From NCBI RefSeq assembly GCF_025506355.1, contig NZ_JANZYP010000006.1, positions 62,001 to 126,000 of the forward strand: 64,000 bases of DNA, in the 5' to 3' direction. This DNA is from Sphaerisporangium corydalis. Its GTDB lineage: Bacteria; Actinomycetota; Actinomycetes; Streptosporangiales; Streptosporangiaceae. The notes below the pieces were generated by a model. The model ran no database searches and had not been told where the DNA came from. It saw only the letters and a list, made by a program, of their open reading frames with translations. This document shows positions 6,281 to 48,371 of this stretch, piece after piece (position 1 is the first letter of the stretch; every line of letters starts with the position of its first letter). The translations under genes were made by a program, and so were the position numbers.

Positions 6281-6441
6281 CCCGGTTCCTCGGGTCGTTC
6301 CCCCTGGTGAACGCGGCCTCACCCTGATCTGAGGCCGCGTCCGGGCGCGGCGGGGTCGGGGTCGGCTCGGGGGCGCTCCAGGGCACGCTTCCGGCTGATC
6401 TCCGATGCCCGCGAGGGGGGCCTGCGGCCACAGTCGAAGGC

Positions 6442-7389
6442 ATGAAGAGTCGTCTGACGGCCGGTGGGTTCGCCGCCCTCACCGGAGGGGCCACCACGAT
6501 GGCCACGCTGCACGTGACCTCTGACCTGGACCCCCTCCGGGGCATGATCAGTGAGTACGCCTACCACCCGCACGGCTGGTTGCTGGCGACCTCGCTGACC
6601 TTGTTCGCCGTCGGGGCGGCTCTGCTCGCCGTGGACCTGTCGCGGCGGGGGAGCGGGCGCCCCACGGCGCTGCTGCTCGGCGCGTGGGGCTGTTGCATGT
6701 TGCTGATCGCGGCGTTCCCCACCGACCAGCCGGGGATGTCGTTGTCGATGTCGGGGGGGATCCACCGCTACGCAGCCTTTGTCGCGTTCGTTTGCATGCC
6801 GGTCGCGGGCCTGGTCGTCGCGGCCCGCGAGGGCAGGCACGCCCGGGCGCTGCGCGGGCTGAGCCTCGCCGCCACCGGGTTCCTCCTGCTGGTGCTGCTG
6901 CCCTATGCCGTCCGCATGTTCGGCGTCGACCCCGGTGCCGTGCCCGCCGGGCTGACCCAGCGCCTGGTGGTGGTCACCGAGGTCGTCGTCCTGGTCCTGA
7001 TCGGGCTGTCAGCCGCCGCAGGCCGCGAAGGTGAACGCGTTCTTGATCTTGTAGGAGTCGCGGACCTTGACCGCGCCGGTGCCGGTGTCGATGCGCAGGA
7101 CGGTCATGGTGGTCGACGTCTCGCCGTGCAGGACGTGCGCCGTCACCTCGTGGGCCCCCGTCCAGTCGAGCATCTCGGGAGTGGTGCCGCCGCCGGGCAG
7201 CTTGACACGGACCCCGCCCACGACGGTGTCCGACTCCAGGTCGTAGAACTTCAGGGTGCGGGTGCCGGGAGAGTAGAACGCGACCGTGCGGCCGTCGGCG
7301 CTCAGCGTGGCGGGCGTGTTGGACGCCACGACCTGCGGTGGCACCCGGCTGGTCAGCTCGTTCCCCTCGAGGTCGTAGGTGACCAGTAG
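6442..7389 (+). CDS. DUF998 membrane protein whose frame runs on into an antisense gene
   Basis: The first about 190 residues form a DUF998-type integral membrane protein with about six hydrophobic helices (for example WLLATSLTLFAVGAALLAV and GFLLLVLLPYAVRMF). They include the family-like end GLTQRLVVVTEVVVLVLIGL. A normal DUF998 protein would stop here. Instead the frame stays open for about 126 more residues, exactly opposite the 3' part of the minus-strand gene 7009-8073. Those residues are Arg/Gly/Val-rich antisense sequence without family character. The junction (about 7008) coincides with the neighbour's stop codon. Function unknown. Confidence 0.6.
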   Translation: MKSRLTAGGFAALTGGATTMATLHVTSDLDPLRGMISEYAYHPHGWLLATSLTLFAVGAALLAVDLSRRGSGRPTALLLGAWGCCMLLIAAFPTDQPGMSLSMSGGIHRYAAFVAFVCMPVAGLVVAAREGRHARALRGLSLAATGFLLLVLLPYAVRMFGVDPGAVPAGLTQRLVVVTEVVVLVLIGLSAAAGREGERVLDLVGVADLDRAGAGVDAQDGHGGRRLAVQDVRRHLVGPRPVEHLGSGAAAGQLDTDPAHDGVRLQVVELQGAGAGRVERDRAAVGAQRGGRVGRHDLRWHPAGQLVPLEVVGDQ

Positions 7390-30262: not shown

Positions 30263-33200
30263 TCAGCCCGCACGGACGGGCTCGGGCGCCTTCCGGCCGT
30301 CGATGCGGCCGCGCAGCGCCTCGTACCCCACCAGGTCGTCGGGCGCGGCGTCCGGGACGTCGGCGTCGAAGCGGGCCAGAGACCGGAACCGCAAGGCGAC
30401 GAGCACGAGCACGACCATCGCGAGGGCGAACAGGACGTACATCAGCCCGACGCCCCGCCCCGCGCCCACGCCGATGACCGCGCCCACGCTGCCCGCCAGC
30501 GGCCCGCCCTCGGCGACCAGCGGGTCGAACAACCTGCTCCCGTACGGCGCGACCAGGCCGAACCCGATCGGCAGCGTCGACCAGGCGATCAGCGTGTTGA
30601 GGGCGAACACCCGCCCGTGGAACCTCGGCGGCACCTTGACCTGCACGATCGTGGTGTAGATGCCGTTGACCAGGGTGAGCCACAGGGCCATGCCGAACGC
30701 GCCCGCCGCGATCGTCACCAGGCTCGGCCGCAGGCCGGTGACCAGGCAGAACGCCGCGAGCCCGAGGACGCTGAGCATCATCCCGTACAGGCGCCGCCTC
30801 CTCGGCCCGCCCCACACGGTCATGACGAGCCCGCCGAGCAGCACGCCCGCGCCCGAGACGAACGCGATCCTGCCCGCGTCGGCGAGCGTGCCGAACGACA
30901 GCACCAGCGGTGAGATCAGCAGGAACAGCGGGGACAGGAAGATGTTGAGCGCGGCGAAGAACAGCAGCATCGACCGGATCGAGGAGTTGCCCCAGCTGTA
31001 GCGGAAGCCGTTCACGATCTCGGCCAGCACGGGCTCCTTGCGCTGCCAGGCCATGCTCGCGGGGAACCGGGTGAACAGCAGGACGGTGACGGCGAAGGCG
31101 TAGCTGACGACGTCGATGAGCACGATGCCCCCGAGGCCGATCGAGGCCATCAGCCCCACCGCGATCAGGGGGACCAGGAGCTGGGTCACGCCGTTGGCCA
31201 TCTGCGCGACCCCGTTGGCGTGGCCCAGGTACTGCTTGGGCACGAGCTGGGGGATCGAGGAGCCGTAGGCGAGCCGCTGGAACTGCAGGGCGACCGACAG
31301 GCTGACGATCAGTACGTAGATGTGCCAGGACGCCAGGTTCCCCGTCCACAGCAGCACGCCGAGCAGGAGCTGGACCCCGCCGGCCGCGACGTCGCCCGCC
31401 AGCATGACCCGCCGCCGGTTCGACCGGTCGACGACCGCGCCCGCCAGCGGGGCGACCAGCATGCCCGGCACCAGCCCGAGTACGGCGAACAGCGCGAAGC
31501 GGACGAGCGAGCCGGTCTGCAGGTAGATCCAGATCGGGATGGCGAACTCGGTGAGCGCCGAGCCGGTCATCGACACCATCTGGCTCGCGGCCACGGTGAC
31601 GAACCTGGCCATGCTCGGCTCGGGGCCGGTCGCCGTCACCGGCTCGCCGGCCCGGGAGACGTCGTGCAGCCACCATTCGGCGTCGCGCCCGCCGCGCGCC
31701 TCCTGGGTGAGCGTCTCGGGCGCGTCCAGCGTGCGGTGGACGGTCGTAACGATCTCCGACAGCTCCTTCGCCCGATATTTCAGGAAGAAGTGCCCCGCCT
31801 CGGCCAGGACCACCACCGCCGAGGTGTCCGCGATGAAGTGCCACTCGCGGAAACGCTCCTGGTAGTAGTCGGTGCTCGGGTCGCGCTCGCCCGCGATGGT
31901 GACGATGGGCGCGCGCAGCCGCTCGACCCCCTCGCGCAGCAGCCGCGTGTAGTGGGCCTCGGCCTCCTCGGAGTCCCTGCGCATGTTGCGGATGATGTGC
32001 CGCGCCTGGCCGGGGTCCAGGTCGTTGAGCTCCAGCCCCCAGGACAGCAGCCAGTTGGCGTACGCCTGGTCCGAGCGCAGCGCCTCCATCCGGGCGAACC
32101 TGGACAGGGCGTTCATCACGCGGTTCTCCGGCCGGGCGAACGGGAAGATCGCGCCGATGTGCACGGCGTCCAGCTCACGCCCGGCCGCCTCCAGCCGGCG
32201 CGCGATCTCCACGATCATCGCCGAGCCGACGCCGCAGTGGCCGTACAGGGCCAGCGGGCCCTCCACCTTCGCGAGGATCTCGGCCACGCACCTGCTCGCG
32301 AGCTCGTCGAACGAGAGCCGGTCCTCGTCCACGCCGAGGTCGTGACCGGGGATCGCCACCGAGAACAGCCGGTACCCGCGCGGCAGCGCGTCGGCCAGCG
32401 GCTGGTACACCACCGCGCTCCCGCCGCCGTACGGCACACAGACATAGGAGAGCACCCGCTCGCCCGCCGGCACCGGCCGCGTCAGCTCGTACAGCAGACC
32501 GCGCGGGCCGCGTTCGCCGGCGGGGACGTCGGCGAGCGCGGCGAGCCCGCGGACCGTGGGGTTCTGGAACAGGTCCATCACCGACACGCCCGCGCCGTGG
32601 TTCGCGCGCATCCCGGCGATCACCTGGGTGGCCAGCAGCGAATGCCCGCCGAGGTCGAAGAAGTCGTCATCGATCCCGATGCGTTCGACGCCGAGCACCG
32701 CGCGCCAGACCGCGGCGACCGACTCCTGCGTGGCGGTCTCCGGCGGGACGAACTCCGTCCCCTCCTCGCGGACCGGCGCCGGTTCGGGCAGGGCGCGGCG
32801 GTCGAGCTTCCCGTTCGGCGACAGCGGCAGCCCCTCCAGCGGGACCAGCGCGGACGGCACCATGTAGTCGGGCAGCCGCAGCTTGAGCGCCGCGCGCACC
32901 TCGCCCGCCTGGGCGTCGCCGGCCAGGTACGCGACGATGCGCTTGTCCCCCGGCCGGTCCTCCCGGACGATCACCGCGGCGTCCCGCACGCCCGGCTGGT
33001 CGCGCAGGGCGGCCTCGATCTCGCCCAGCTCGATGCGCAACCCCCTGACCTTGACCTGGGTGTCCAGGCGGCCGAGGAAGTCGACGGTCCCGTCCGCCCG
33101 CCAGCGCGCCAGGTCGCCCGTCCGGTACAGGCGCGAGCCCGGCGGCCCGTACGGGTCGGGGACGAACCGCTCGGCCGTCAGCGCCGGCCTGCCGTGGTAG

Positions 33201-35833
33201 CCGTACGCCAGGCCGGCGCCGCCGATGTGCAGCTCGCCCGGCACCCCGATCGGGACGGGCCGGAGCCGGGGGTCCAGCACGTAAAGGCGGACGTTCTGGA
33301 TGGGCGCCCCGATGGGCACGCGGGCCCGTCCCGCGAGCTCCCCGGGCTCGCAGGCCCACGCCGACACGTCGACGGCCGCCTCGGTGGGGCCGTACAGGTT
33401 GTGCAGCTCGGCGGGCAGCGTCTCCCGGCAGCGGATCGCCAGGCCGGCGGGCAGCTCCTCGCCGCTGCAGATGACGCGCCTCAGCGACGTACACGACCGG
33501 GCGTCCTCGTCGGCGAGGAACACGGCGAGCATCGAGGGCACGAAGTGCAGGGTCGTCACGCCCTCCGTGCGGATCAGGCCCGCCAGGTATGCGGCGTCCT
33601 TGTGCCCGCCAGGGCGGGCCAGCACGAGCCGGGCGCCGGCCAGCAGCGGCCAGAAGAACTCCCACACCGAGACGTCGAAGCTCGCGGGGGTCTTCTGCAG
33701 GACGGTGTCGCCCGCGTCGAGGGGGAACCGCTTCCGCATCCAGTCGAGCCGGTTGACGATGCCGCGATGGGAGTTGGGCACGCCTTTCGGCCGGCCGGTG
33801 GAACCCGAGGTGTAGATCATGTAAGCCACGTCCCCGGCCTCGGCGCCCCGCCCTGCCGTGGTCTCCGGGGGCCGTTCCGCTTCGGTCTGCTTCGTGTCGG
33901 TCCGCTTGGCTTCGGTCCGCGTGGGCCGGTCCGCCGGGTCGTCCAGCGTCAGCAGGCGGGCCGTCTTCAGCGTTGCCGGGAGCGTCTCGCGCAGGCGCCG
34001 CTGGGTGAGGACGATCGTCGCGCCGGAGTCGGCGAGCATGAACTCCAGCCGCTCGGCCGGGTACTCGGGGTCCAGCGGCACGTACGCGGCGCCCGCCTTG
34101 AGGACGCCCAGCAGCCCGGCGACCAGGTCGAGCGACCGCTCCGCGCAGACCGCCACGCGCGTCCCCGGCCCTGCGCCGAGGGCGCGGAGCCGCCGTGCGA
34201 CCCGATCGGCCCGTTCGCCCAGCTCGGCGTAGGTGAGCGAGGCCCCCTCGAAGGTGACGGCGGTACGGCCGGGGGTGCGGGCGATCTGCTCCTCGACCAG
34301 GCCGTGCAGGGTGGCACCGTCGGGGAAGGGGGCGTCCGTCGCGTTGAACCCGGCCGTGACCAGCGCCCGCTCGGCCTCGCCGAGGATGGCGGCGTCCGAG
34401 ACGCGCGTGTCGGGGCGGGCGGTGACCTCCGCCAGGAACATGGTGAGGTGCGTCGCCATGCGCTCGACGGTGTCCGCCGCGAACAGGTCGGTGTTGTAGA
34501 TCAGCAGCAGGCCCAGCCCGCCGGCGTCCTCGCTCGCGTACAGCTCCAGGTCGAACCGGGTGGAGATCGTCTCCACCGCGAACGGCTCGACGGCGAGCCC
34601 CTCCACCGGGCGGGCCGGCGCGCCGCCGTAGTTCTGCATGGCGAAGATGGTCTGGAACAGCGGCGGCCGGGACACGTCACGCGCCACGTTCAGCTCTTGG
34701 ACCAGCCGTTCGAACGGCAGCTCCTGGTGCGCGAACGCGTCCAGCGCGGACTCCCTGGTCCGCGACAGCAGCTCGCGGAACGTCGGGTCGCCCGACAGGT
34801 CGGCGCGCATGGTCAGCATGTTGAGGAAGCAGCCGATCATGCCTTCCAGCTCCGGCCGCGATCGGCCGGCGATGGGGGACCCGACGGCGAAGTCCTCCTG
34901 GCCCGAGTACCGGCCGAGCAGCGCCTGCCACGCCGACAGCACGATCATGTACATCGTCACGCCGAGGTCGGCGGCCATCGCGCGCAGGCCGGCCGCCTCC
35001 CCGGCGCCGAGCCGGAAGCCGTGCGCGGCGCCCGCGAACGTCTGCCGCGCCGGCCTTGGGTGGTCGGTGAACACGTCCAGCGGCGGCAGCCCGGCCAGCC
35101 GCCCGCTCCAGTACGCGAGGTCGCCCCCGGCCTCCTGCTCCCGCCGCTGCCAGACGGCGAAGTCCCCGTAGTCGAGCGCCCCCCGCTCGCCGGTGACGGC
35201 CTCGGCCCCCTCGCCGCGCATGGCGGTCTCGTAGCGAGTGAGGATCTCCGAGGTCAGCAGGTCGCATGACCAGCCGTCGCAGGCGATGTGGTGCACCGCG
35301 AGCGCCAGCACGTGGTCCTCCGCGTCCAGCCTCACCAGCAGCGGCCGCAGCAGCGGGCCCGCCGCCAGGTCGAACGGCTCGGCCGCCAGCGCCGCGACCA
35401 GCTCCCGCGCCTCCTGTTCCGAGCCCGCCTTGGCGCGCGCCGGCCGTACCCCGGCGGAGTCCTCGACCACGGCGGCGGGACGGCCGTCGTCCCCGGCGGG
35501 GAAGCGCGTGCGCAGGGCCTCGTGCCGGTCGGCGACCTGGACGACCGCCGCCTCCAGCGCGTCTGCGTCCAGCGGGCCGCGCAGCCGGAGCGTGAGCACG
35601 ATGGTGTACGCGGCGGCGCCGGGGACGAGCTGGTCCATGAACCACAGCCGCTCCTGCGCGTACGACAGGGGCGGGGCCAGGCCGGGCGCGCGGCGCGGGA
35701 TGAGGTGCTCGGCGCGCGCCTGCGGACGGCGTCTCAGCCGCTGGGCGAGGAGTGCCTGTTTGCCGGCGCTGAGCGGTTCGCCGGAGCCGGGGCGCTGCGG
35801 CCCGAGTTCTGTCACGGGATCGGCCATCGACAT
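30263..35833 (-). CDS. Single-module NRPS C-A(Ser)-T-TE fused to an MFS transporter
   Basis: This 1,856-residue fusion has C (about 50-480, active HHIACDG with His181/His182/Asp186), A (about 520-1040; YMIYTSGSTGRPKG, core A8 RTGDLARW), T (Ser1065 in DLGGHSLLA), TE (about 1150-1390) and a 12-helix-type MFS domain (1408-1830; AVVDRSNRRRVMLAGD). Aligning by eye to GrsA positions gives the specificity code D-V-W-H-I-S-L-V-D-K, essentially the serine code of EntF-type modules. The TE nucleophile elbow reads YGHCGVG, so Cys1200 replaces Ser. No MbtH, PPTase or other biosynthetic gene is adjacent. The likely product is a seryl compound that is released and exported by the same polypeptide; the acyl donor is unknown. 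Confidence 0.93.
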   Translation of the reverse strand: MSMADPVTELGPQRPGSGEPLSAGKQALLAQRLRRRPQARAEHLIPRRAPGLAPPLSYAQERLWFMDQLVPGAAAYTIVLTLRLRGPLDADALEAAVVQVADRHEALRTRFPAGDDGRPAAVVEDSAGVRPARAKAGSEQEARELVAALAAEPFDLAAGPLLRPLLVRLDAEDHVLALAVHHIACDGWSCDLLTSEILTRYETAMRGEGAEAVTGERGALDYGDFAVWQRREQEAGGDLAYWSGRLAGLPPLDVFTDHPRPARQTFAGAAHGFRLGAGEAAGLRAMAADLGVTMYMIVLSAWQALLGRYSGQEDFAVGSPIAGRSRPELEGMIGCFLNMLTMRADLSGDPTFRELLSRTRESALDAFAHQELPFERLVQELNVARDVSRPPLFQTIFAMQNYGGAPARPVEGLAVEPFAVETISTRFDLELYASEDAGGLGLLLIYNTDLFAADTVERMATHLTMFLAEVTARPDTRVSDAAILGEAERALVTAGFNATDAPFPDGATLHGLVEEQIARTPGRTAVTFEGASLTYAELGERADRVARRLRALGAGPGTRVAVCAERSLDLVAGLLGVLKAGAAYVPLDPEYPAERLEFMLADSGATIVLTQRRLRETLPATLKTARLLTLDDPADRPTRTEAKRTDTKQTEAERPPETTAGRGAEAGDVAYMIYTSGSTGRPKGVPNSHRGIVNRLDWMRKRFPLDAGDTVLQKTPASFDVSVWEFFWPLLAGARLVLARPGGHKDAAYLAGLIRTEGVTTLHFVPSMLAVFLADEDARSCTSLRRVICSGEELPAGLAIRCRETLPAELHNLYGPTEAAVDVSAWACEPGELAGRARVPIGAPIQNVRLYVLDPRLRPVPIGVPGELHIGGAGLAYGYHGRPALTAERFVPDPYGPPGSRLYRTGDLARWRADGTVDFLGRLDTQVKVRGLRIELGEIEAALRDQPGVRDAAVIVREDRPGDKRIVAYLAGDAQAGEVRAALKLRLPDYMVPSALVPLEGLPLSPNGKLDRRALPEPAPVREEGTEFVPPETATQESVAAVWRAVLGVERIGIDDDFFDLGGHSLLATQVIAGMRANHGAGVSVMDLFQNPTVRGLAALADVPAGERGPRGLLYELTRPVPAGERVLSYVCVPYGGGSAVVYQPLADALPRGYRLFSVAIPGHDLGVDEDRLSFDELASRCVAEILAKVEGPLALYGHCGVGSAMIVEIARRLEAAGRELDAVHIGAIFPFARPENRVMNALSRFARMEALRSDQAYANWLLSWGLELNDLDPGQARHIIRNMRRDSEEAEAHYTRLLREGVERLRAPIVTIAGERDPSTDYYQERFREWHFIADTSAVVVLAEAGHFFLKYRAKELSEIVTTVHRTLDAPETLTQEARGGRDAEWWLHDVSRAGEPVTATGPEPSMARFVTVAASQMVSMTGSALTEFAIPIWIYLQTGSLVRFALFAVLGLVPGMLVAPLAGAVVDRSNRRRVMLAGDVAAGGVQLLLGVLLWTGNLASWHIYVLIVSLSVALQFQRLAYGSSIPQLVPKQYLGHANGVAQMANGVTQLLVPLIAVGLMASIGLGGIVLIDVVSYAFAVTVLLFTRFPASMAWQRKEPVLAEIVNGFRYSWGNSSIRSMLLFFAALNIFLSPLFLLISPLVLSFGTLADAGRIAFVSGAGVLLGGLVMTVWGGPRRRRLYGMMLSVLGLAAFCLVTGLRPSLVTIAAGAFGMALWLTLVNGIYTTIVQVKVPPRFHGRVFALNTLIAWSTLPIGFGLVAPYGSRLFDPLVAEGGPLAGSVGAVIGVGAGRGVGLMYVLFALAMVVLVLVALRFRSLARFDADVPDAAPDDLVGYEALRGRIDGRKAPEPVRAG

Positions 35834-38718: not shown

Positions 38719-38768
38719 TCCCGGCCCCCAAGCGGAACGGTCACGGCATGAGGAACTCTGGAGACAGC

Positions 38769-38921
38769 ATGGTGATACTTCGCTCCGAGATCACAGACCT
38801 GCGAGACGTCCCTTTGTCCGAGGTGAGTGAGTTGGGCATGGGCGCCGAGGTGAGGCGTATCGTGCCCGCATCGGAGGACGTCCGACGAGTACCGGTGGCG
38901 GCTTTCAACTCCGCCATCTGA
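38769..38921 (+). CDS. fxsA: FxSxx-COOH cyclophane RiPP precursor
   Basis: This is a 50-residue precursor with an N-terminal leader (MVILRSEITDLRDVPLSEV...) rich in Asp, Glu, Arg and Leu. It ends in AAFNSAI at the stop, so Phe46-Asn47-Ser48-Ala49-Ile50 gives the diagnostic F-x-S-x-x-COOH terminus. The family is modified by FxsB-type radical SAM/SPASM enzymes, which form a three-residue cyclophane linking the Phe ring to a carbon of the third residue. The ATG has GGAG five bases upstream, and the maturase gene begins 32 bases after the stop. The ORF is too short for common length cut-offs, but composition, ribosome site, terminus and position all agree. Confidence 0.93.
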   Translation: MVILRSEITDLRDVPLSEVSELGMGAEVRRIVPASEDVRRVPVAAFNSAI

Positions 38922-38953
38922 CCGGCGAACGGGAGCTTCGAGGGGCTCGCATC

Positions 38954-41302
38954 GTGCCTTTCCGACAGTTCGTACTCAAGGTCACGAGCAGATGTGACCT
39001 CGCCTGTGATCACTGTTATGTATACGAACACGCGGACCAGAGCTGGCGCCGTCGTCCCAAGGTGATGGCGCGGGAAACCGTGGCGATGGCGGCCGACCGC
39101 ATGGCCGAGCACGCGCGGGCCCACGCTCTGCGGACAATTCACGTGATCCTGCACGGCGGAGAACCTTTGCTGGCGGGTCACGAACGCCTCGAAGAAACGA
39201 TCGTCCGGCTTCGCGACGCGGTCCGGGGGATCTGCGAACTGGATTTACGTGTCCACACCAACGGAGTGTCGCTCGACGAGCGCTTCTGCCGGATGTTCGC
39301 CGACCACGATGTGCGGGTCGGCGTCTCTCTGGACGGCGGTCGTCGGGCGAACGATCTCCATCGCCGGTACGCCGACGGCCGAAGTAGTTATGACCGCGTG
39401 GTCCGGGCGGTCGACCGGCTCGGGAGGGAGTTCCCGGACATCTACGCCGGGCTCCTCTGCACGATCGACATAGGCAACGACCCGGTGCCCGTGTACGAGG
39501 CCCTCGTCGCCCTGCGACCTCCGGTGGTCGACTTTCTGCTGCCGCACGCGACCTGGGACCATCCGCCGCCTCGCCCGGCCGGCGTGGCCACCCCCTATGC
39601 CGACTGGCTCATCGCCATCCACGACCGGTGGCGCAAGGACGGCGAGCCGGTCCGGGTGCGGATGTTCGAGTCCATCATCCGCACCACCCAGGGCCAGGGC
39701 AGCCTGACCGAGTCCCTCGGCCTGGACGAATGCGATCTCGCCGTCATCGAGACCGACGGGGAGTACGAGCAGGCGGACTCCCTCAAGACGTCGTTCTCCG
39801 GCGCGCCCGCCACGGGGTGCGACGTCTTCTCCCACACGCTCGACGACGTCGCGCGCTCGCCCGCGATCGCAGCGCGGCTCGGCGGGCTGGAGGGCCTCTG
39901 CGACACCTGCAGGGCGTGCCCGGTGGTGGAGAGCTGCGGCGGAGGGCTGTACGCGCACCGGCACCGCGTCGGGACCGGCTTCCAGAACCCCAGCGTCTTC
40001 TGCGACGACCTCATGAAGCTCATCACGCACGTCCGCTCGCAGGCCGAGGTCCGCCCGCGGGCCGGGATCCGCGTACGGGCCGGGGTCCGCGCGGAAAGGG
40101 GCCGGGAGGGGGCCGCCCCGGCCGCGCACACCATCCCCGGCCCCGATCTGGCGGCGCTGGCGGCCGGGTACGGGGACGCGGCCACGATGACCCACCTCGC
40201 CGCGTCGCAGACCAGTGCGCGCCGGTTGCTGATCTCCTCGGTGTACAAGCTCGCCGGACCCGGCGTGGCGGACGCGTGGAAGCTGCTGACCGAGCTCGAC
40301 CGCGGACATCCGGACGCGGTGCGCGAGGTCTTCGACCACCCCTACGTCCGGGTGTGGGCGGCCCGGTGCATCGCCCGAGGCCAGTGGGCGCACCCGGAGA
40401 CGCGCTACCTCTCCAACATCGCCGCCGCCGCGGCGCTCAGAGCCGGAGTGGCGGCCCGGCTGGCGGTCGCGACCCGCGGGGGGTCGGTGCCGCTGCCGGC
40501 CATGGGCTCGATCCCGGCCGGCCGGGCTCAGGAGGCGATCATCGAGACCGGGCCGGGCGTGTTCGCCGTGGCCACCGAGGACCGGCGGTGGGAGGTCCGC
40601 CTGGACGAGCCCGCGGCGGCCGGAGACTGGCGGCCGATCTCCCGGCTGACCGCGGACGGCGTCTCGATGGCCCTGGACGACGTCGATCCCTATCGGGACT
40701 GCTACGACCACGCCGTCGCCCCGCGCCTGTCGCCGGAGCGGCTGGCCCGCTGGCAGGCGATGTTCGCGGAGGCGTGGGAGGTCGTGAAGCGCGACCATTC
40801 CCGCTATGCCCCCGCGCTCGCCGCCGGGCTCAGGGTGCTGACCCCGCTGGTGGCCCCGGGGGGCGACGTCCAGGCGAGCGCGACCGCGAGGCACGCGTTC
40901 GGCGCGATCGGCGTCGCGCTGCCCGGCCGTCCCGACGACCTGGCGATGCTGATGATCCACGAATTCCAGCACGTCAAACTCGGGGCCGTGCTCGACCTCA
41001 CCGATCTTTTCGACGGGACCGACGAAGAGCTTTATCACGTGTCCTGGCGGCAGGATCCGCGCCCGCTGGAAGGCGTGTTCCAGGGAACGTACGCGCACAT
41101 GGCCGTTACCGAAGTATGGAAGGCGCGCACACGGCCCGGAATGGGACATATCCCCGAAAAAGCGACAGAGAATTACCTCCGCTGGCGTGACGGCACCCTC
41201 GAGGCCGTGGACACTCTGGCCAGGTCGGGATCGCTGACCGAGGTCGGCAGGCAATTCGTCGCGGGAATGCGCGCGGCGGCCCGATCATGGCTCGATGACT
41301 GA
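38954..41302 (+). CDS. fxsB: FxsB-family radical SAM/SPASM cyclophane maturase fused to an HExxH domain
   Basis: The protein is 782 residues. The radical SAM cluster site is Cys14-x3-Cys18-x2-Cys21 (SRCDLACDHCY). The SPASM region carries Cys316, Cys319, Cys322, Cys328 and Cys350 (CDTCRACPVVESCGGG; NPSVFCDD). Homology to FxsB ends near residue 375. After a linker, a second domain (about 400-780) contains His669-Glu-Phe-Gln-His673, the HExxH motif of a peptide-modifying family often fused to or encoded beside FxsB, recently linked to 2-oxoglutarate-dependent beta-hydroxylation. Predicted action: crosslink Phe46 and Ser48 of FxsA, then a second modification. GTG 38954 follows GAGGGG. Confidence 0.93.
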   Translation: MPFRQFVLKVTSRCDLACDHCYVYEHADQSWRRRPKVMARETVAMAADRMAEHARAHALRTIHVILHGGEPLLAGHERLEETIVRLRDAVRGICELDLRVHTNGVSLDERFCRMFADHDVRVGVSLDGGRRANDLHRRYADGRSSYDRVVRAVDRLGREFPDIYAGLLCTIDIGNDPVPVYEALVALRPPVVDFLLPHATWDHPPPRPAGVATPYADWLIAIHDRWRKDGEPVRVRMFESIIRTTQGQGSLTESLGLDECDLAVIETDGEYEQADSLKTSFSGAPATGCDVFSHTLDDVARSPAIAARLGGLEGLCDTCRACPVVESCGGGLYAHRHRVGTGFQNPSVFCDDLMKLITHVRSQAEVRPRAGIRVRAGVRAERGREGAAPAAHTIPGPDLAALAAGYGDAATMTHLAASQTSARRLLISSVYKLAGPGVADAWKLLTELDRGHPDAVREVFDHPYVRVWAARCIARGQWAHPETRYLSNIAAAAALRAGVAARLAVATRGGSVPLPAMGSIPAGRAQEAIIETGPGVFAVATEDRRWEVRLDEPAAAGDWRPISRLTADGVSMALDDVDPYRDCYDHAVAPRLSPERLARWQAMFAEAWEVVKRDHSRYAPALAAGLRVLTPLVAPGGDVQASATARHAFGAIGVALPGRPDDLAMLMIHEFQHVKLGAVLDLTDLFDGTDEELYHVSWRQDPRPLEGVFQGTYAHMAVTEVWKARTRPGMGHIPEKATENYLRWRDGTLEAVDTLARSGSLTEVGRQFVAGMRAAARSWLDD

Positions 41303-41331
41303 CTTCGCGATCAATATGATCAGGCGATGAC

Positions 41332-41345
41332 AGCGGATATCCGCT
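41332..41345. promoter_or_regulatory. 14-bp perfect palindrome in the fxsB-fxsC gap
   Basis: AGCGGATATCCGCT is fully self-complementary. It lies 7 bases before a possible promoter (TTGACC at 41352-41357, 17 bases, TTGCAT at 41375-41380), which would allow separate expression of the TIR/STAND part of the locus. The promoter match is weak at the -10. Confidence 0.4.
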
Positions 41346-41469
41346 TCCCGCTTGACCCGTCCCGAGAAATCGCGTTGCATTGTTTCTCACGACGCGCGCC
41401 TCGACCTCGGGTGTGGTGTCGGTTCCCTTCGGGGGTGCGACCGCGCACGGGAGGGGCCTGGAGAGTTAT

Positions 41470-42114
41470 ATGTCAGACGGATCGTTCTCCGGTGACGGAG
41501 CGGACGCGCCGTACTTTTTCCTTAGCTACTGCCACATCGAGCCGGTGCGGCCACGGGAAGATCCTGATCACTATGTTCTGGAGTTCTTCCAGGACCTGTG
41601 CCGCCACATCATGCAGCTCACGGATCATCCCGGGGGAGTGCACGCCGGATTCATGGACCGTCAGATGCGGCCCGGCACGCGATGGAACGACGACATCAGG
41701 CACGCTCTCGCCACCTGCCGGGTGTTCATTCCACTCTACCAGCCCAAATATTTCAGAAGCGAGTTCTGCGGTATGGAGTGGGACGCCTTCGCCCGCCGTG
41801 AGGAGTTACACCGGGCGAAACGGTACAGCCCGTACAGTGCGATCATGCCGGTGCTCTGGACCCCGGTGGATTTCGAGGGCATACCGAAGGTCGCCAGTGA
41901 ACTTCAGGCATCCCACACCGCGCTGGGCGAGGACTACAAGAGGGACGGCCTCTACTCGCTGGCCGTCCGCAAGAACTTCCACAACGGCTACATCAGCGCG
42001 ACCCTGGAACTGGCGACGGCCATCGTCGACATCGCCCGCAGCACACGGCTGCAGCCCTGCGACGTGGCCGAGTTCTCCAACCTGAGGAACGTCTTCGAAG
42101 GCGGTGTGACATGA
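41470..42114 (+). CDS. TIR-like protein of the FxSxx system (FxsC-type, short)
   Basis: This 214-residue TIR-like protein of the FxsC type has the first strand PYFFLSYCH, GFMDRQMRPGTRWNDDIRHALATCRVFIPLYQPKYF (BB loop and box 2 region), and SEFCGMEWDAF. In the last, Cys100 and Glu103 occupy the positions of the CxxE catalytic glutamate of TIR NADases. It lacks the long C-terminal domain of the next gene. ATG 41470 follows GGAGAG. The stop overlaps the next start (ATGA). The NADase activity is inference; the family is known only as FxSxx-associated. Confidence 0.87.
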   Translation: MSDGSFSGDGADAPYFFLSYCHIEPVRPREDPDHYVLEFFQDLCRHIMQLTDHPGGVHAGFMDRQMRPGTRWNDDIRHALATCRVFIPLYQPKYFRSEFCGMEWDAFARREELHRAKRYSPYSAIMPVLWTPVDFEGIPKVASELQASHTALGEDYKRDGLYSLAVRKNFHNGYISATLELATAIVDIARSTRLQPCDVAEFSNLRNVFEGGVT

Positions 42115-43361
42115 GAACGCCAGCGGATCCTCCGCCTGCCGGCCGTCCGTACTTCTTTCTCAGCTATGAGCCGACGCCCCGGTTCGGGCCGGACGACATG
42201 AGCGATCCCGACAGGTGGGTCGCCGCGTTCTTCGAGCGGCTCTCGGCGGTGGTGAGCGAGTCGGCCGATCTGCCGCTGGACGCCGAGGCCGGGTACATGG
42301 ACCGCGAGCGGTCGAGGAACGGCTGGTCGGCCCGTACCGCACTCGCCCTGCGGACCTGCAGGGTTTTCGTGCCGCTGTACGCGTCGCGCTACTTCGCCAG
42401 CGAGCGATGCGGGCGGGAGTGGGCGGTGTTCAACCGCAGAGTGGAGCGCTCGGTGGGCGAGTTCGAGCCGACGGAGGCGATCATCCCGGCGCTGTGGGTG
42501 CCGACCCCGCTGTCGAAGTTCCCCGCCGCCACCGAGCCGGTGAAGTTCGACGCGTCGGCCCTCGGCGACGCGTACCAGCGGCTGGGCTTCTACGGGATCA
42601 TGCGCACCGGCCTGCAGATCGACTACGAGCTGTCGGTGCACAGCCTGGCGGAGCGCATCGTCCGCGCGGCCGAGTCCGCTCAGGTCCTCCCCGGCACCGA
42701 GGCGGCCTACCAGTCGGCGCGCAATGCCTTCGTAGGATATCCGTATCGGAAACTGCAGATCATTCTCGCGCCCGCCCGGCTGGATTCCACTTCCCGGCGC
42801 GACGCGGCCTACTACGGCGACCAGGACGCGGAGTGGAATCCCTATTACCCGGGTGAGACGCCGCTGGCGGAGTACGCCACCGATCTCGCCAGGAACCTGG
42901 AGTACACCCCCGAGGTCGTGACACTGCGCGAGAACGCCGACCAGGTGCTGAGCGCCACGTCACCCGCCGAACCCGGCGTGCTGGTCCTCGATCCGTGGGC
43001 GGCGCGGGATCCCGAACTGCTCGACCGGCTGCGCAGGTTCGACCGCCTCGAGAAACCGTGGATCGACGTCATAATCCCGTGGAATCAACAGGACCGTCAG
43101 ACGATCGACGCCGAGGCGGAACTCGAGGAGAAGTTGGAGTCGGCCCTTCCTCGCAGGCTTCTGGAAGGCCGGATGACCTCTAGGATTTCCGCACGCGACA
43201 CCTCCACCATCGAGGAGTTCGGGCGGACTCTGCGTGCCGTGGTACATCGCGTCGGCAACCAGTATCTCAAGTACGGGACTGCCCATCCTCCTGCCGGACG
43301 CCAGGACAAACGTCTGAGGCTGCGCGGTCCGGGGGAGACGGAGGATCGGAGTAAATCGTGA
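42111..43361 (+). CDS. fxsC: TIR-like protein FxsC with C-terminal FxsC domain
   Basis: This 416-residue protein has an N-terminal TIR-like domain (PYFFLSYEPTPRFG; ARTALALRTCRVFVPLYASRYFASERCGREW) with Cys100 and Glu103 at exactly the same numbers as in the upstream paralogue. A C-terminal FxsC domain (about 200-400: YPYRKLQIILAPARLD, VLVLDPWAARDPELLDRL, WIDVIIPWNQQD) follows. It is ATGA-coupled to the short TIR gene and GTGA-coupled to the STAND gene, so stoichiometric production of all three is expected. Function in the FxSxx system is unknown. Confidence 0.92.
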   Translation: MRTPADPPPAGRPYFFLSYEPTPRFGPDDMSDPDRWVAAFFERLSAVVSESADLPLDAEAGYMDRERSRNGWSARTALALRTCRVFVPLYASRYFASERCGREWAVFNRRVERSVGEFEPTEAIIPALWVPTPLSKFPAATEPVKFDASALGDAYQRLGFYGIMRTGLQIDYELSVHSLAERIVRAAESAQVLPGTEAAYQSARNAFVGYPYRKLQIILAPARLDSTSRRDAAYYGDQDAEWNPYYPGETPLAEYATDLARNLEYTPEVVTLRENADQVLSATSPAEPGVLVLDPWAARDPELLDRLRRFDRLEKPWIDVIIPWNQQDRQTIDAEAELEEKLESALPRRLLEGRMTSRISARDTSTIEEFGRTLRAVVHRVGNQYLKYGTAHPPAGRQDKRLRLRGPGETEDRSKS

Positions 43362-46300
43362 GGACAGGGATGAGCGGCTCTAAAGAAGGTCAGATAATCA
43401 CCTTCTACTCATTCAAGGGTGGAACCGGGCGCACCATGGCGCTGGCGAACACGGCATGGATCCTCGCGAGCAACGGCTGGAAAGTCCTGACCATCGACTG
43501 GGATCTCGAGTCTCCCGGCTTGCACAAGTTCTTCCATCCTTTCCTGGACCCCCGGGTCGGCGAAATGCGCGGCGTCATCGAGCTGATCCAGGACTACGCG
43601 TGGGCCGCCATGCTGGACGAACCGCGTCCCGACGACTGGTACAAGGAGTTCTGCCAGGTCGCCGGGTACGTCACTCCGCTGGAGTGGAATGAGTTCCCCG
43701 GGGAAGGGCGGCTCGACTTCATGTCCGCGGGACGGCAGAATCGCGACTACTCCTCGCTGATCGCCTCCTTCGACTGGGACCACTTCTACGAACGGCTGCG
43801 CGGCGGCCTGTTCTTCGACGCCCTTCGCGCCCACGTGAAGCAGAACTACGACTACGTCCTGATCGACAGCCGCACCGGCCTCAGCGACATCGCCGACATC
43901 TGCACCATGCACCTCCCTGACACCCTCGTCGACTGTTTCACCCTCAGCGACCAGAGCATCGAGGGAGCCGCCCACGTCGCGCGCGACGTGAGCGAGGCGA
44001 GCAGCGGCCGGAAGATCCAGATCTTCCCGGTGCCCATGCGGATCGAAGAAGGCGAGAAGGAGAAGCTCGACGCTGGACGTGCCTTCGCGCGCAGCAGGTT
44101 CGACCGGTTCCTCACCGAGATGGGCAAGGCCGAGGCCGACCGCTACTGGGCCGCGGTGGAGATCCCCTACCGGCCGTACTACGCGTTCGAGGAGACCCTC
44201 GCCGCGTTCGGCGACGTCCCCGGGTCGCCCCGTTCGATGCTGGCGGCGTACGAAAGCCTCACCGAGGTGATCACGGGGGGCAGGGCCGGGTCCTCGCCGT
44301 CGATCGAGGAGAAGATCCGGTTGCGCTATCGCGACCACTTCACCCGGGTACGGCCCGTCGCTCCCGGCCACGTCCTGGTCAGCTATGTCCCGGAAGATCG
44401 CATGTGGGCCGACTGGGTGCAGTCGCTTCTCACCCGCATCGGGTTCAAGGTGCGCACCCGGTCGGTGACCGAGGCGGAGCCGCCAGAGCCGGACCCCACG
44501 GCCACCAAGGTGACCGAGCACATCGTCGCCATCATCTCGCCCGCGTACGTAAGTTCGGCCCGGGCCCGCGAGCTCTGGACGACCACCACCACCGGCCAGG
44601 GGTCCGCGGCCGACCACGTGCTGGTGCCGGTACGCGTGGCCCCGACACAGTTGCAGCACCCCTTCACCGTCCCGCCGATCGTCGACCTCGTGCGGACCGA
44701 CGAGGACGAGGCGACCACGGCGATCATGCGTGCCCTCGGCCAGTCGCCGCGCGAGCTCCAGCATCTCGCCGCGACCGCGACGCCCGGGCCGCGCTTCCCC
44801 AGGAGCAGGCCGGCCATCACCAACGTGCCGAGCCGCAACGCCGTCTTCACCGGCCGGGGCGAGCTGCTCGAGAAGCTGCGGGACCAGCTCATGAGCGGCG
44901 AGACCACGGCCGTGCTGCCGCAGGCGCTGCACGGGCTCGGTGGCATCGGGAAGAGCCAGGTCGCGCTGGAGTACGCGCACCGGTTCATGGCCGACTACGA
45001 CGTGGTCTGGTACGTACCGGCCGCGCAGTCCGCCCTGGCGATTCCCGCGCTCGTCGAGCTGGCCAGGCATCTGGACATCCCGGAAGGCGAGAACATCGAG
45101 GATGTCATCCAGGCGCTGCGCCGCCTGCTGCGCAGGAACGAGGACCAACTCCGCTGGCTGCTGATATTCGACAACGCCCACGAACCGGCCGACATCACCC
45201 ACCTGCTCCCCGGGGGTTCCGGCCACATCGTCGTCACCTCACGCAGCCAGGTGTGGTCCCAGGTGGCCACGCCTCTGGAGGTCGACGTCTTCACGCGAGC
45301 CGAGAGCGTGCAGCATCTCGTGCAACGCGTCAACGCGCTCAGCGCCGAGGACGCCGACATGGTGGCCGAATCCCTCGGCGACCTGCCGCTCGCGATCGAG
45401 CAGGCCGCGGCCTGGCTCCGTGAGACCGGCATGCCGCCGGCGGACTATGTCGCCCAGCTCCAGACGAAGCTGTCGCAGGTGCTCTCGCTGAACAAGCCGG
45501 CCGACTACCCCACCCCGGTGGCGGCGGCGTGGGAGGTGTCCTTCGAGGAACTGCGGCAGCGGTCGCGGGCCGGCACGAGGCTTCTCCAACTGTGCGCGTT
45601 CTTCGCCCCCGAGGCCATTTCCATCAAGATGCTGTACAGCGACGAGACCGTGAAGGCGCTGGTGCCGTACGACCCGGCGCTACGCGAGAACGTCGTCATG
45701 GGACGGGTCATCCAGGAGATCAGCCGGTTCGGTCTGGCCAAGCTCGACCAGCGCACGAAGTCCGTGGCCGTCCACCGGCTGGTCCAGGGCATGGTGCGCC
45801 ACCGGATGACGGAGCAGGAGAAGATCGAGGCCTCCAGGGACGTCCACAACATTCTCGTCGGTGCCCGGCCCAGGCCCGCCGAGGTCGACGACTCAGAGAA
45901 CTGGCAGGCCTACGACGCGATCTGGCCTCATCTGGATCCCTCGGGGGCGATCGAGTGGGGGGGAGAGGCGACCCGCAGCCTCCTGATCGAGCGAGTGCGT
46001 TACCTCTGGCGGCGTGGCCAGTTCGATGCCGCCATGGAGCTGGGGGAGGAACTGGAGAACAAGTGGAAAAGCTGGGTCTCCGCCGAGACGGAGCGGCCGC
46101 CGGCGGAGGACGGCGAGACCGGATCCTTCGAACAGGAGACGGTCGAGCGGCAGATCCTCCACCTGCGCTTCCAGCTCGCCAACGTCATGCGGTCCCAGGG
46201 CAGGTACAAGGCGGCGCGCGACACCGACACCGTCGTACTGGGGCGGCAGCAACTGCTGCTGGGTGAGAACCACCCGCACACCCTGATGACCGCCGGAGGC

Positions 46301-47347
46301 CTCGGAGCCGACCTTCGCGCCCTCGGGGACTACTCCGCCGCGCTGAAGATGGCGACCGACACCTTCGACCGCCTGAAGAACGAGTACGGGGAGGACCATC
46401 CCCGGACCCTGATGGCCGCCAACAACAAGGCCGTCTCCTTGCGCCTGGTCGGCGAGTTCCTCGAAGCGCGCGACGTGGACCAGGACACCTACGACCGCCG
46501 TCTCACCGTCCTCGGCGAGAAGCACCCGTACACCCTGTTCTCCGGCGCCAACATCGGCGGCGACCTGCGGGACGCCGGTCAGTTCGCCCGATCGGTCGAG
46601 GTGCTGACACAGTTCTACGACGAGCACCGCTCGCTGCTCGGCGAGGACTACCCCGACACGTTGCGAGCCGCCAAGAGCCTGGGCGTGTCGCTGCGGAAGG
46701 CCGGGGAGTACCGCGAGGCCTTCCGGGTGACCGAGCAGACCACCAAACTGTTCGAGAGAGTGCACGGGGACACCAGCCCCGACACGCTGGTGTGCCGGAT
46801 CAATCTCGCCTCCGACCTCGCAGCGCTGGGCAGGAAGTCCGAGGCCCGGGAGATCGTGGGGCAGGTGTGGGAGGCGTTCACCGTCTCACTCGGCGCGGAC
46901 CACCCCTACACGCTGATCGCGGCCAACAACCTCTCCATCTACATCCGAGGTTCCCACTCCGTGGAGAAGGCCAGGCGGCTGGCCGAGAGCACTCTCGGCC
47001 TCATGGTCGAGAAGCTGGGTGAGAAACACCCCTTCACCCTGTGCGCCGCGGTCAATTTCGCGAACTGCCTGGCCGACCTCGGCGAGTGGGACCGCGCGCT
47101 GGAACTGGAGACCGCGACCTTCCAGTCCCTCGAGGACACGCTCGGCCGCGAACACCCGGACACACTCGCCTGCTCGGCCAATCTCGCGGTCACGTTGCGT
47201 GAGGCCGGCACCATCCACCAGGCCCAGCAGATACGCGACGAGACGCTGAAGGCTTTCCGCGAGGTATTGGGCGAGAGCCATCCGCTGCTGACATTCCTCG
47301 ACAGCGGGCAGCGGATGACGCTGGACCTGGAGGCGCTGCCGGTCTGA
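43358..47347 (+). CDS. FxSxx-system ParA-variant / TIR-like / NB-ARC / TPR protein
   Basis: The protein is 1,329 residues with four regions. (1) A ParA/MinD-like ATPase (about 10-300) has the variant P-loop FKGGTGRT, with Arg25 where the P-loop lysine normally is, and LTIDWDLESPG. (2) A TIR-like domain (about 335-470) contains HVLVSYVPEDRMWADWVQSLL. (3) An NB-ARC ATPase (about 490-800) has Walker A GLGGIGKSQVA (Lys532) and LLIFDNAHEPADI. (4) Kinesin-light-chain-type TPRs span about 880-1320 (LGENHPHTL, GEDHPRTLMAANNKAVSLR). This is an NLR-like STAND architecture. GTG 43358 overlaps the fxsC stop; ATG 43370 is an alternative. It is probably the sensor or scaffold of the FxSxx system. Confidence 0.92.
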   Translation: MRTGMSGSKEGQIITFYSFKGGTGRTMALANTAWILASNGWKVLTIDWDLESPGLHKFFHPFLDPRVGEMRGVIELIQDYAWAAMLDEPRPDDWYKEFCQVAGYVTPLEWNEFPGEGRLDFMSAGRQNRDYSSLIASFDWDHFYERLRGGLFFDALRAHVKQNYDYVLIDSRTGLSDIADICTMHLPDTLVDCFTLSDQSIEGAAHVARDVSEASSGRKIQIFPVPMRIEEGEKEKLDAGRAFARSRFDRFLTEMGKAEADRYWAAVEIPYRPYYAFEETLAAFGDVPGSPRSMLAAYESLTEVITGGRAGSSPSIEEKIRLRYRDHFTRVRPVAPGHVLVSYVPEDRMWADWVQSLLTRIGFKVRTRSVTEAEPPEPDPTATKVTEHIVAIISPAYVSSARARELWTTTTTGQGSAADHVLVPVRVAPTQLQHPFTVPPIVDLVRTDEDEATTAIMRALGQSPRELQHLAATATPGPRFPRSRPAITNVPSRNAVFTGRGELLEKLRDQLMSGETTAVLPQALHGLGGIGKSQVALEYAHRFMADYDVVWYVPAAQSALAIPALVELARHLDIPEGENIEDVIQALRRLLRRNEDQLRWLLIFDNAHEPADITHLLPGGSGHIVVTSRSQVWSQVATPLEVDVFTRAESVQHLVQRVNALSAEDADMVAESLGDLPLAIEQAAAWLRETGMPPADYVAQLQTKLSQVLSLNKPADYPTPVAAAWEVSFEELRQRSRAGTRLLQLCAFFAPEAISIKMLYSDETVKALVPYDPALRENVVMGRVIQEISRFGLAKLDQRTKSVAVHRLVQGMVRHRMTEQEKIEASRDVHNILVGARPRPAEVDDSENWQAYDAIWPHLDPSGAIEWGGEATRSLLIERVRYLWRRGQFDAAMELGEELENKWKSWVSAETERPPAEDGETGSFEQETVERQILHLRFQLANVMRSQGRYKAARDTDTVVLGRQQLLLGENHPHTLMTAGGLGADLRALGDYSAALKMATDTFDRLKNEYGEDHPRTLMAANNKAVSLRLVGEFLEARDVDQDTYDRRLTVLGEKHPYTLFSGANIGGDLRDAGQFARSVEVLTQFYDEHRSLLGEDYPDTLRAAKSLGVSLRKAGEYREAFRVTEQTTKLFERVHGDTSPDTLVCRINLASDLAALGRKSEAREIVGQVWEAFTVSLGADHPYTLIAANNLSIYIRGSHSVEKARRLAESTLGLMVEKLGEKHPFTLCAAVNFANCLADLGEWDRALELETATFQSLEDTLGREHPDTLACSANLAVTLREAGTIHQAQQIRDETLKAFREVLGESHPLLTFLDSGQRMTLDLEALPV

Positions 47348-47348
47348 T

Positions 47349-48371
47349 TCAGCGGGTGGACGGGTCTTTTCTGGCGAGCCAGGTGAGTATGCCGGGCAGG
47401 GCGTCGATGGCCGCGAAATGGCCGGCGCTGTCCTGGATGACGGCATCCGCGCCGGGAATGTGGTCCGCGAGCCATTTCGTGTGGGTCACCGGGGAGAAGA
47501 CGTCTTCCGCACCATGCCAGAGCCGGACCGGCACCTTGATGTCCGCAGGGTCGAATCCCCAGCTCGACCGGTAGGCCACCGAGTCGTCGATCCATCCCCA
47601 GGCCGATTCTCGCAGCGCCTCAGCATAACCATTCGTTAAGCTGTCACGAATGACCTTGTTGGCCACGATTCGCCGATCCGAATCCGGGAGTTCGTGAAAA
47701 AAACTCTGGATAAGGCGGCCCGGATCCCTACGGATGTTGGCGACGGCCGGCTTGAGATAATCGGCCAGCCGGTCCGCACCTGATTCGGCGGTCTGGTATT
47801 CCTCGATATTGTGCTTCGACATTCCCTCGTACCAGTCGAGCTTTTCGGCATCGGGTGGTGCCAGCGTCACCAGGGCCGCGGCACCGGTGACGCGCTGTGG
47901 CAGGAGGGCGGCACACGCCAGCGCGTGCGGCCCGCCGCCCGAGCGCCCGGCGACGGCGAATCGCTCGATGCCGAGAGCGTCGGCGATGGTTTCCACATCG
48001 GTCACGCCGTCGGCGACGGAACGGCCCTCGACACGACTGGACATGCCGTAACCGGGCCGGTCGAAGGAGATCAGGCGAATGGCGTGGTTGTAGAGGTATT
48101 GCCCTCTGGGCAGGGGGCCGACCCGGCAGCCAGGCGTGCCATGCAGGAAGAAGACCGGTCGGCCTGAGGGATGGCCCAACTCGGTGATGGCAAGCTCGCC
48201 CCCGCGCCGGTTCTCGCCCCCGCGCCGGTTGTCGATGAACCTCGGTGCATCGATCTGCGTAGCAGCGTTGCGATTAGGTTTTTTCGACATGTCGCGTGCC
48301 AGTGCGCTGCTTTTGGGCACCTCGCGTGCCGACGGATCGCTTGCCGCCAACACATTGCGCGTGACCAACAC
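47349..48371 (-). CDS. Alpha/beta hydrolase
   Basis: This 340-residue hydrolase has FFLHGTPGCR (oxyanion region), nucleophile elbow VAGRSGGGPHA, VRLWHGAEDVFSPV with the acid residue, and DSAGHFAAID with the catalytic His. GTG 48371 is chosen because AGGGAG lies four bases upstream; it leaves about 60 variable N-terminal residues, including RRGGENRRGGE from an 18-bp direct repeat. Its stop is one base from the stop of the STAND gene, in convergent orientation. It could hydrolyse peptides, esters or amides; whether it belongs to the FxSxx system is open. Confidence 0.85.
   Translation of the reverse strand: MLVTRNVLAASDPSAREVPKSSALARDMSKKPNRNAATQIDAPRFIDNRRGGENRRGGELAITELGHPSGRPVFFLHGTPGCRVGPLPRGQYLYNHAIRLISFDRPGYGMSSRVEGRSVADGVTDVETIADALGIERFAVAGRSGGGPHALACAALLPQRVTGAAALVTLAPPDAEKLDWYEGMSKHNIEEYQTAESGADRLADYLKPAVANIRRDPGRLIQSFFHELPDSDRRIVANKVIRDSLTNGYAEALRESAWGWIDDSVAYRSSWGFDPADIKVPVRLWHGAEDVFSPVTHTKWLADHIPGADAVIQDSAGHFAAIDALPGILTWLARKDPSTR

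Follow-up and report, generated by a model that had tools for sequence, protein, structure and literature searches.

An FxSxx peptide locus of Sphaerisporangium corydalis as a possible peptide-regulated, NLR-like switch with TIR proteins

Introduction

The subject of this work is an fxs locus, coding for a small FxSxx-type peptide, its maturase and a set of TIR-bearing proteins, in a stretch of 64,000 nucleotides of the Sphaerisporangium corydalis genome (contig NZ_JANZYP010000006.1, positions 62,001 to 126,000, forward strand), hereafter the window. The core architecture of FxSxx systems was described by Kaur et al. (2020; PMC7159879, section 24), with the suggestion that the peptide is a toxin or a signal. 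In their account the HExxH protein cleaves the peptide, whereas characterised relatives hydroxylate theirs (PMC12636437). The domain was once taken for a peptidase; in a fused enzyme of the radical S-adenosylmethionine (SAM)-HExxH type it is reported to act as an alpha-ketoglutarate-dependent beta-hydroxylase after cyclophane formation, and HExxH enzymes that also cleave the peptide backbone are reported in the same preprint (PMC12636437). Another reference point is Thoeris, in which the TIR protein ThsB works with a ThsA of the SIR2-SLOG or TM-macro type, the SLOG domain of ThsA binding the cyclic ADP-ribose (cADPR) isomer 3'cADPR (PMC11204291). SLATT proteins are predicted to be membrane effectors regulated by ADP-ribose derivatives, and YpsA-like SLOG proteins have been tied to cADPr sensing (PMC9503650). 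Among plant nucleotide-binding leucine-rich-repeat receptors (NLRs), the glutamate-less TIR domains of sensor-type members work through a signal-competent partner (PMC7282519).

The window locus holds the parts of the standalone peptide-processing AP-ATPase system of Kaur et al., namely a precursor, a radical SAM/SPASM enzyme, an HExxH domain and an AP-ATPase/TPR protein with a MinD/ParA-like domain. By itself it is a further member of the described FxSxx/AP-ATPase kind, while the composite that includes the extra parts of its relatives is a variant of it. The TIR-only FxsC1 and the convergent hydrolase of the window do not appear in section 24 of that paper, and its text passages name SLATT, SLOG and an alpha/beta hydrolase in connection with systems other than FxSxx loci. 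As in Thoeris, some relatives combine a predicted TIR enzyme with a SLOG-fold protein and a membrane protein. Unlike Thoeris, fxs loci add a modified peptide and a signal transduction ATPase with numerous domains (STAND), and the effector would be a SLATT protein with a separate SLOG; the window locus has neither. The name Thoeris was absent from the PADLOC matches of the four locus proteins scanned, SIR2 and macro domains lying outside the search of the window.

The chemistry of such maturases is known, and the question addressed here is the purpose of FxSxx peptides. A full-text search of the open-licence literature found no functional study of fxs genes or of that purpose. The core of the system is already published; absent from the literature searched were the count of STAND linkage across a class survey, a split in the TIR catalytic glutamate, a recurrent hydrolase and the association with SLOG-SLATT. 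The linkage of SLOG-SLATT, hydrolase and AAC(3)-like genes to fxs loci and the glutamate difference were not found in the text of the open-licence literature, figures and supplements aside. Together with its relatives, the locus might form a peptide-regulated, NLR-like STAND switch that controls TIR enzymes or TIR nucleotide signalling, a tentative reading that we judge close to evenly poised.

Results

Five genes in the order FxsA, FxsB, FxsC1, FxsC2, STAND occupy positions 38769-47347 of the forward strand, according to the list of open reading frames (ORFs) and to NCBIfam and Pfam profile scans, with a sixth gene converging on them:

38769..38921, forward strand: FxsA precursor, 50 residues, C-terminus FNSAI; alternative upstream ATG at 38748
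38954..41302, forward strand: FxsB, radical SAM/SPASM maturase fused to an alpha-ketoglutarate-HExxH domain (TIGR04269, TIGR04267); HEFQH at about 40958-40972
41470..42114, forward strand: FxsC1, TIR-like domain only (NF040588, TIR_2); ORF start possible at 41380
42111..43361, forward strand: FxsC2, TIR-like domain (Glu103) and FxsC C-terminal domain (NF040588, TIGR04276)
43358..47347, forward strand: STAND protein of 1329 residues, KGGVGR ParA/MinD variant, TIR, NB-ARC and TPR (NF040586, NF047398, Pfam)
47349..48371, reverse strand: alpha/beta hydrolase (PF00561), convergent with STAND; recurs at related loci

A preliminary description, made from the sequence alone, had listed a precursor ending in FNSAI, a radical SAM/SPASM maturase with HExxH domain, two TIR-like proteins and a ParA/TIR/NB-ARC/TPR protein, and all five were recovered where it had placed them. 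The 4-base overlaps that it noted between the last three genes are real (42111-42114 and 43358-43361). Its range also took in the alpha/beta hydrolase gene, which it had not named.

Linkage was followed in two samples. The class survey comprised 276 genomes of the class, with 76 FxsB matches in 55 genomes, neighbours being counted within 25 kb of FxsB. The named loci were the best 80 of 427 FxsC relatives, so that FxsC is present by construction; two belong to Sphaerisporangium and 78 to Streptomyces or [Kitasatospora] papulosa, and counts among them are not independent. Within the survey, 17 fused or long FxsB ORFs were set apart as the fused type; accessory genes were tallied in 15 of these loci (the window and L066-L079), and the other two (G259:C57 in L090 and G199:C37 in L120) were tallied among the 60 other loci.

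The STAND gene (NF040586) lies near at least 65 of the 76 FxsB matches, a lower bound with up to three NF040586 candidates scored per genome. It is within the same 25 kb of all 17 fused or long FxsB ORFs, and FxsC of 14 of them. The idea of one functional system, proposed in the preliminary description, is supported in that the loss of STAND from most fxs loci, which would have spoken against it, is not seen, because at least those 65 matches keep it within reach.

The window STAND protein scores 982 bits against NF040586 (cut-off 300), and its KGGVGR AAA part scores 139.8 bits against NF047398; Pfam adds TIR_2, NB-ARC (23.5 bits, exactly its cut-off), TPR_10 and TPR_12. The KGGVGR ParA-like part is also a lead to other candidate defence proteins that share the domain. 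FxsC2 scores 161.9 bits against NF040588 (cut-off 130) and 162.7 bits against TIGR04276 (cut-off 55), while FxsC1 matches the N-terminal model alone (NF040588, 195.6 bits). With Pfam TIR_2, FxsC1 is above the cut-off of 28 (39.8 bits) and FxsC2 below it (18.2 bits).

Both window FxsC proteins have a glutamate at the TIR catalytic position, in the context SEFCGMEW in FxsC1 and as Glu103 in FxsC2. Among distinct FxsC proteins, 103 of 104 have Glu at this column and one has His, as opposed to distinct STAND-borne TIR domains with Glu in 40, Asp in 34 and another residue or a gap in 35 of 109, a protein with two TIR matches being scored as Glu if either match has it. A looser alignment of the same column gave Glu in 32 of 35 FxsC and 15 of 46 STAND TIR domains. 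In a profile search of PDB, most matches of FxsC were TIR domains from plants (none reached E 0.001, the best value being 0.0038), and the two alignments shown span the Cys-x-x-Glu segment. FxsC genes can also be plasmid-borne: five such records were found, with identity of at most 41.3%, and FxsC is annotated on plasmids of Streptomyces and Kitasatospora (NZ_CP108204.1, NZ_CP109474.1, NZ_CP108290.1).

The putative precursor ends exactly in FNSAI, that is F-x-S-x-x at the C-terminus, 32 bases ahead of FxsB. Its score against TIGR04268 is 24.3 bits, under the curated cut-off of 28, and its identity as FxsA is taken from the C-terminal motif, the position and the synteny with relatives, not from the model score. 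Since other fused-type FxsA in the survey likewise fall under this cut-off, the model rather than the window peptide may be at fault. FxsB was found in 76 of the 80 named loci fetched, and in every one of these the motif followed by a stop codon was present upstream of it, as opposed to 4 of 1380 random 700-base windows of the same loci with the fxsA neighbourhood excluded; the occurrence of the motif exceeds chance. Ahead of 31 of 78 FxsB ORFs, a motif scan found an F/Y/W-x-S/T-x-x end, in some cases plainly by chance.

At other loci, FxsA adjoins STAND or bears a C-terminal extension. An exact F-x-S-x-x end was seen in 20 of 51 extracted FxsA rows, the rest having C-terminal extensions, variants or motif repeats, and the "COOH" in the family name is therefore not general. 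Positions were counted for 38 of the 39 rows over the cut-off (G017:C171, a short stretch in a 1209-codon frame, was dropped), the full set of 53 rows also including 15 weaker ones chosen for their position at fxs loci; all other weaker rows were discarded, and the counts use the 38 alone. FxsB is no more than 1 kb away in 27 of these 38, and a STAND gene lies 45-406 bases off in 8 of the other 11. In the family f17, five loci (G122, G142, G162, G251, G268) have one FxsB region and two FxsA-like rows with different nearest STAND genes, at least one row of each pair being below the cut-off. At L222, L224, L226, L227 and L228 of this family, an FxsA-like row stands tail to tail with the longer STAND gene at 45-111 bases. 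Because FxsA away from FxsB mostly adjoins STAND and the f17 pairs have different nearest STAND genes, gene position supports a pairing of FxsA with STAND.

FxsB scores 569 bits against TIGR04269 (cut-off 370), and its C-terminal mod_HExxH domain 159.5 bits against TIGR04267 (cut-off 40), with HEFQH intact at residue 669. Its radical SAM part resembles ChlB in PDB (9gm3, E 2.8e-84), and the C-terminal part resembles 22nu (E 1.8e-73, HEFQH in register) and, weakly, ChlH (8s5f, E 1.1e-5), which differs in that it hydroxylates Asp and His of another precursor (Morishita 2024, as cited in PMC12636437). A lost-hydroxylase form FxsBH (NF040587) was considered for the window protein and rejected, the score of 177.7 bits being below the cut-off of 225 and HEFQH being intact. 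A metallopeptidase reading of the domain was also set aside: its relatives of known structure are 22nu and ChlH, and characterised members of the family are hydroxylases, with backbone cleavage reported for some HExxH enzymes (PMC12636437). HExxH is present in 61 of the 76 survey FxsB matches and is retained in the fused survey loci L070 and L078 (genus g32) and in both named Sphaerisporangium loci. Hydroxylation is dispensable in many relatives, since none of the 73 full-length named Streptomyces fusions has kept the motif, the locus otherwise persisting (L152, with a named FxsB ORF of only 460 codons, is excluded from the count).

When 14 loci were compared, core genes and antisense frames aside, four neighbours recurred across genera: the alpha/beta hydrolase, an AAC(3)-like gene, a SLATT gene and its partner of about 190 residues. 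Other recurring families were limited to the syntenic trio C76/L188/L213 (see below), to L071-L075 or to single pairs. Frames that resemble transporters by eye recur in the trio.

Of the 17 survey loci with a fused or long FxsB, 15 carry a hydrolase homologue (all 15 of the counted set, neither of the other two); so do one of the 60 other survey loci (L085, a stretch overlapping a fused-type locus) and 77 of the 80 named loci. Residues Ser144, Asp290 and His318, conserved in 92, 93 and 93 of the 93 rows of an alignment that in some cases includes the same gene twice, form the predicted catalytic triad in our own reading. The start codon is uncertain, the well-conserved part beginning near residue 52. 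The AAC(3)-like gene, not found in the window, sits between FxsB and FxsC at 7 of the 15 fused-type loci (L068, L069, L072, L073, L076, L077, L079; in L068 at 6153-6932, PF02522 237.8 bits). The L068 protein is far under the NCBIfam cut-offs for aminoglycoside enzymes, and for this reason it may modify the peptide instead.

The SLATT protein of the relatives has SLATT_3 and SLATT_1 domains. One SLATT_3 match occurs in each of 14 survey genomes, and in 8 of these it adjoins an FxsC-bearing fxs locus, with the nearest core gene at 124-2099 bases and the partner gene 416-644 bases off in all eight. Where a named locus has SLATT as well as FxsB, the SLATT gene sits upstream in divergent orientation (60 loci) or past STAND (15 loci); the hydrolase switches sides likewise in 16. 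The partner had no family in the Pfam and NCBIfam scans, and a PDB profile search gave only DprA at E 0.089 and one unrelated match at E 0.63. A structural model, made for the Sphaerisporangium fuscum homologue (L213) and not for the C76 protein, reached a predicted local distance difference test score (pLDDT) of 88.5, and Foldseek placed YpsA first (E 4.4e-9), followed by DprA, with LOG and TRPM5 lower (TRPM5 weak). By its modelled structure, the partner is thus a predicted SLOG fold.

Three NF040586 genes of about 1000 bits are present in the S. corydalis genome, at C76, C78 and C119, the last being that of the window; further genes over the cut-off are found at C100 (460.7 bits), C83 (437.1 bits) and C114 (308.6 bits). 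Two FxsB genes are over the cut-off, at C119 and C78; at C78, about 21.5 kb separate FxsB from FxsA, and 18.6 kb separate it from STAND. The C76 locus (L061, 5586-12528) comprises SLOG, SLATT_3/SLATT_1, FxsC and a ParA-TIR-NB-ARC-TPR STAND gene, and the one SLATT_3 match of the genome (E 1e-5 or better) lies there. Neither FxsA nor FxsB was found at this locus, the hydrolase is likewise absent, and no F-x-S-x-x-stop was seen in six frames of the roughly 360 bases that precede FxsC. The STAND protein of C76 shares 67-68% identity, and its FxsC 59-63%, with Sphaerisporangium proteins, and the flanking frames on both sides match the Sphaerisporangium loci L188 and L213. Since these syntenic loci still have both FxsA and FxsB, C76 has most likely lost the two genes.

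Two further frames in the window lie upstream of the fxs genes. At 23038-24867 (forward strand) there is a Streptomyces antibiotic regulatory protein (SARP)-type regulator with BTAD and NB-ARC domains, and at 30263-35833 (reverse strand) a frame of 1856 codons with condensation, adenylation, carrier and thioesterase domains, followed by a major facilitator superfamily (MFS) transporter domain.

Discussion

The genes, their linkage, the FxsC glutamate and the intact HExxH can be read from the sequence and the SLOG fold from a model; from these we infer the remaining steps as follows. By analogy with its family, the radical SAM domain of FxsB would introduce a cross-link between the side chains of Phe and Ser in the FNS segment of FxsA (-2 Da), and the intact HExxH domain would add a beta-hydroxyl (+16 Da). 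The modified FxsA might stay inside the cell and be sensed by STAND, probably through the TPRs. Upon infection or damage, a change in the state of FxsA would cause oligomerisation of STAND through NB-ARC, and the STAND TIR would gather the TIR domains of FxsC. Once gathered, these could consume NAD+ or produce a cyclic-ADPR-like signal, as the kept glutamate suggests. In relatives with SLOG-SLATT, the YpsA-like SLOG would read this signal and open the SLATT membrane protein, giving a Thoeris-like output; in S. corydalis this output would lie at the second locus, C76. The alpha/beta hydrolase is considered a recurrent extra part and is assigned no step.

The glutamate split is reminiscent of plant TIR-NLR sensor/executor pairs, as most fxs relatives combine a Glu-less sensor TIR with a Glu-bearing partner TIR. 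The fxs proteins differ in being bacterial, in having a TPR sensor and an executor that is a separate small protein, and, in the window, in a sensor TIR that keeps Glu. This residue stands at the aligned column outside the Cys-x-x-Glu-Trp context of FxsC, and because of it the notion of a non-catalytic sensor TIR is weaker for the window STAND than for the family.

That glutamate is one of several observations that weigh against a peptide-regulated STAND switch. FxsC is not universal, being within 25 kb of 27 of the 76 FxsB matches, and for 69 of 145 STAND rows FxsB is missing from the same interval. The AlphaFold model of FxsC2 is poor (pLDDT 64.7, from a 35-sequence alignment), and from this poor model Foldseek gave no match at E 0.001 or better, the TIR structure 3ozi being ranked 36 (E 0.05); no match of FxsC2 was found among phage records. 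In PADLOC, FxsC had no match, FxsB had a weak viperin match (35.8 bits), and STAND matched candidate PDC-M28B models through its ParA part at 43391-43987 (78 and 35 bits). The association of SLATT_3 with FxsC (8 of 24 FxsC genomes versus 6 of 252 others; Fisher p 2.1e-6, uncorrected for phylogeny), itself a point in favour of the switch, is weakened because seven of the eight linked copies come from one genus, g32. Moreover, SLOG-SLATT is present at 5 of the 15 fused-type survey loci, the window has no homologue of either protein, and the SLOG family resides mostly elsewhere, with 8 of 84 rows near fxs core genes and 76 not within 10 kb. Finally, an FxsA that activates STAND, one that restrains it and one that is exported would all be compatible with the data.

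An unlikely, more elaborate form of the STAND switch would divide the pathway between two loci of the same genome. C119, with FxsA, FxsB, FxsC, STAND and hydrolase, might signal to the SLOG-SLATT effector of C76. Here cyclophane-capped FxsA would guard the TPR groove of STAND; its loss or change would free a two-tier TIR relay, in which the STAND TIR recruits the catalytic FxsC, and an NAD-derived signal would open the SLOG-gated SLATT. This proposal was drawn because C76 has SLOG-SLATT, FxsC and STAND while the syntenic Sphaerisporangium loci still hold FxsA and FxsB.

Among other explanations, a checkpoint for development or metabolism in filamentous actinomycetes, in place of immunity, also seems unlikely. 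The modification of FxsA, which depends on SAM, an Fe-S cluster, O2 and alpha-ketoglutarate, would then report the metabolic state to STAND and lead to growth limitation or programmed death. The genomes with FxsB (55 of 276 in the class) range in size from 4.8 to 11 Mb, in line with such a role, as are the six genes checked near the window locus: the SARP-type regulator, a frame combining non-ribosomal peptide synthetase and MFS domains, a chitinase, a pirin, an MDMPI-family protein and another alpha/beta hydrolase. None of these is a known defence gene, and the defence-island neighbourhood that the preliminary description proposed to look for finds no support in them, the six having been checked rather than the whole window. 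However, with HExxH lost from the full-length named Streptomyces fusions, a readout of O2 and alpha-ketoglutarate could not be general; the genomes have several paralogues, and modules such as SLOG, SLATT and TIR are characteristic of conflict systems (PMC9503650). The peptide had also been proposed as the signal or trigger of an immune, killing or developmental switch; the SLOG-SLATT neighbours of some relatives fit the immune or killing option.

Rather doubtful is the proposal that modified FxsA is itself a toxin or a secreted signal or pheromone, which TIR and STAND would regulate or amplify. The suggestion is already in print (PMC7159879, section 24), and the precursor is small and variable with a short conserved C-terminal motif. 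Against it, no exporter or dedicated protease is among the families that recur across genera in the 14 loci, whose neighbours were not all put through family scans. Moreover, the characterised HExxH relatives are alpha-ketoglutarate hydroxylases, which weakens the case for a releasing peptidase, although cleavage has also been reported (PMC12636437). A biosynthetic cluster for an exported ribosomally synthesized and post-translationally modified peptide, with TIR and STAND merely as AfsR-like regulators, is very improbable. In its favour are a match to the AfsR model NF053617 that overlaps NB-ARC (58.3 bits, far under the cut-off of that model) and the likeness of the AAC(3)-like and hydrolase genes to tailoring genes; against it, no DNA-binding family is among the NCBIfam and Pfam matches of STAND at E 0.01, and FxsC retains the TIR catalytic glutamate.

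For the STAND switch, a catalytic-looking TIR, STAND and, in some relatives, SLOG-SLATT give concrete read-outs, namely NAD+, ADP-ribose isomers and membrane leakage. If this reading is true, the modification of a ribosomal peptide would be the input of a bacterial NLR-like receptor.

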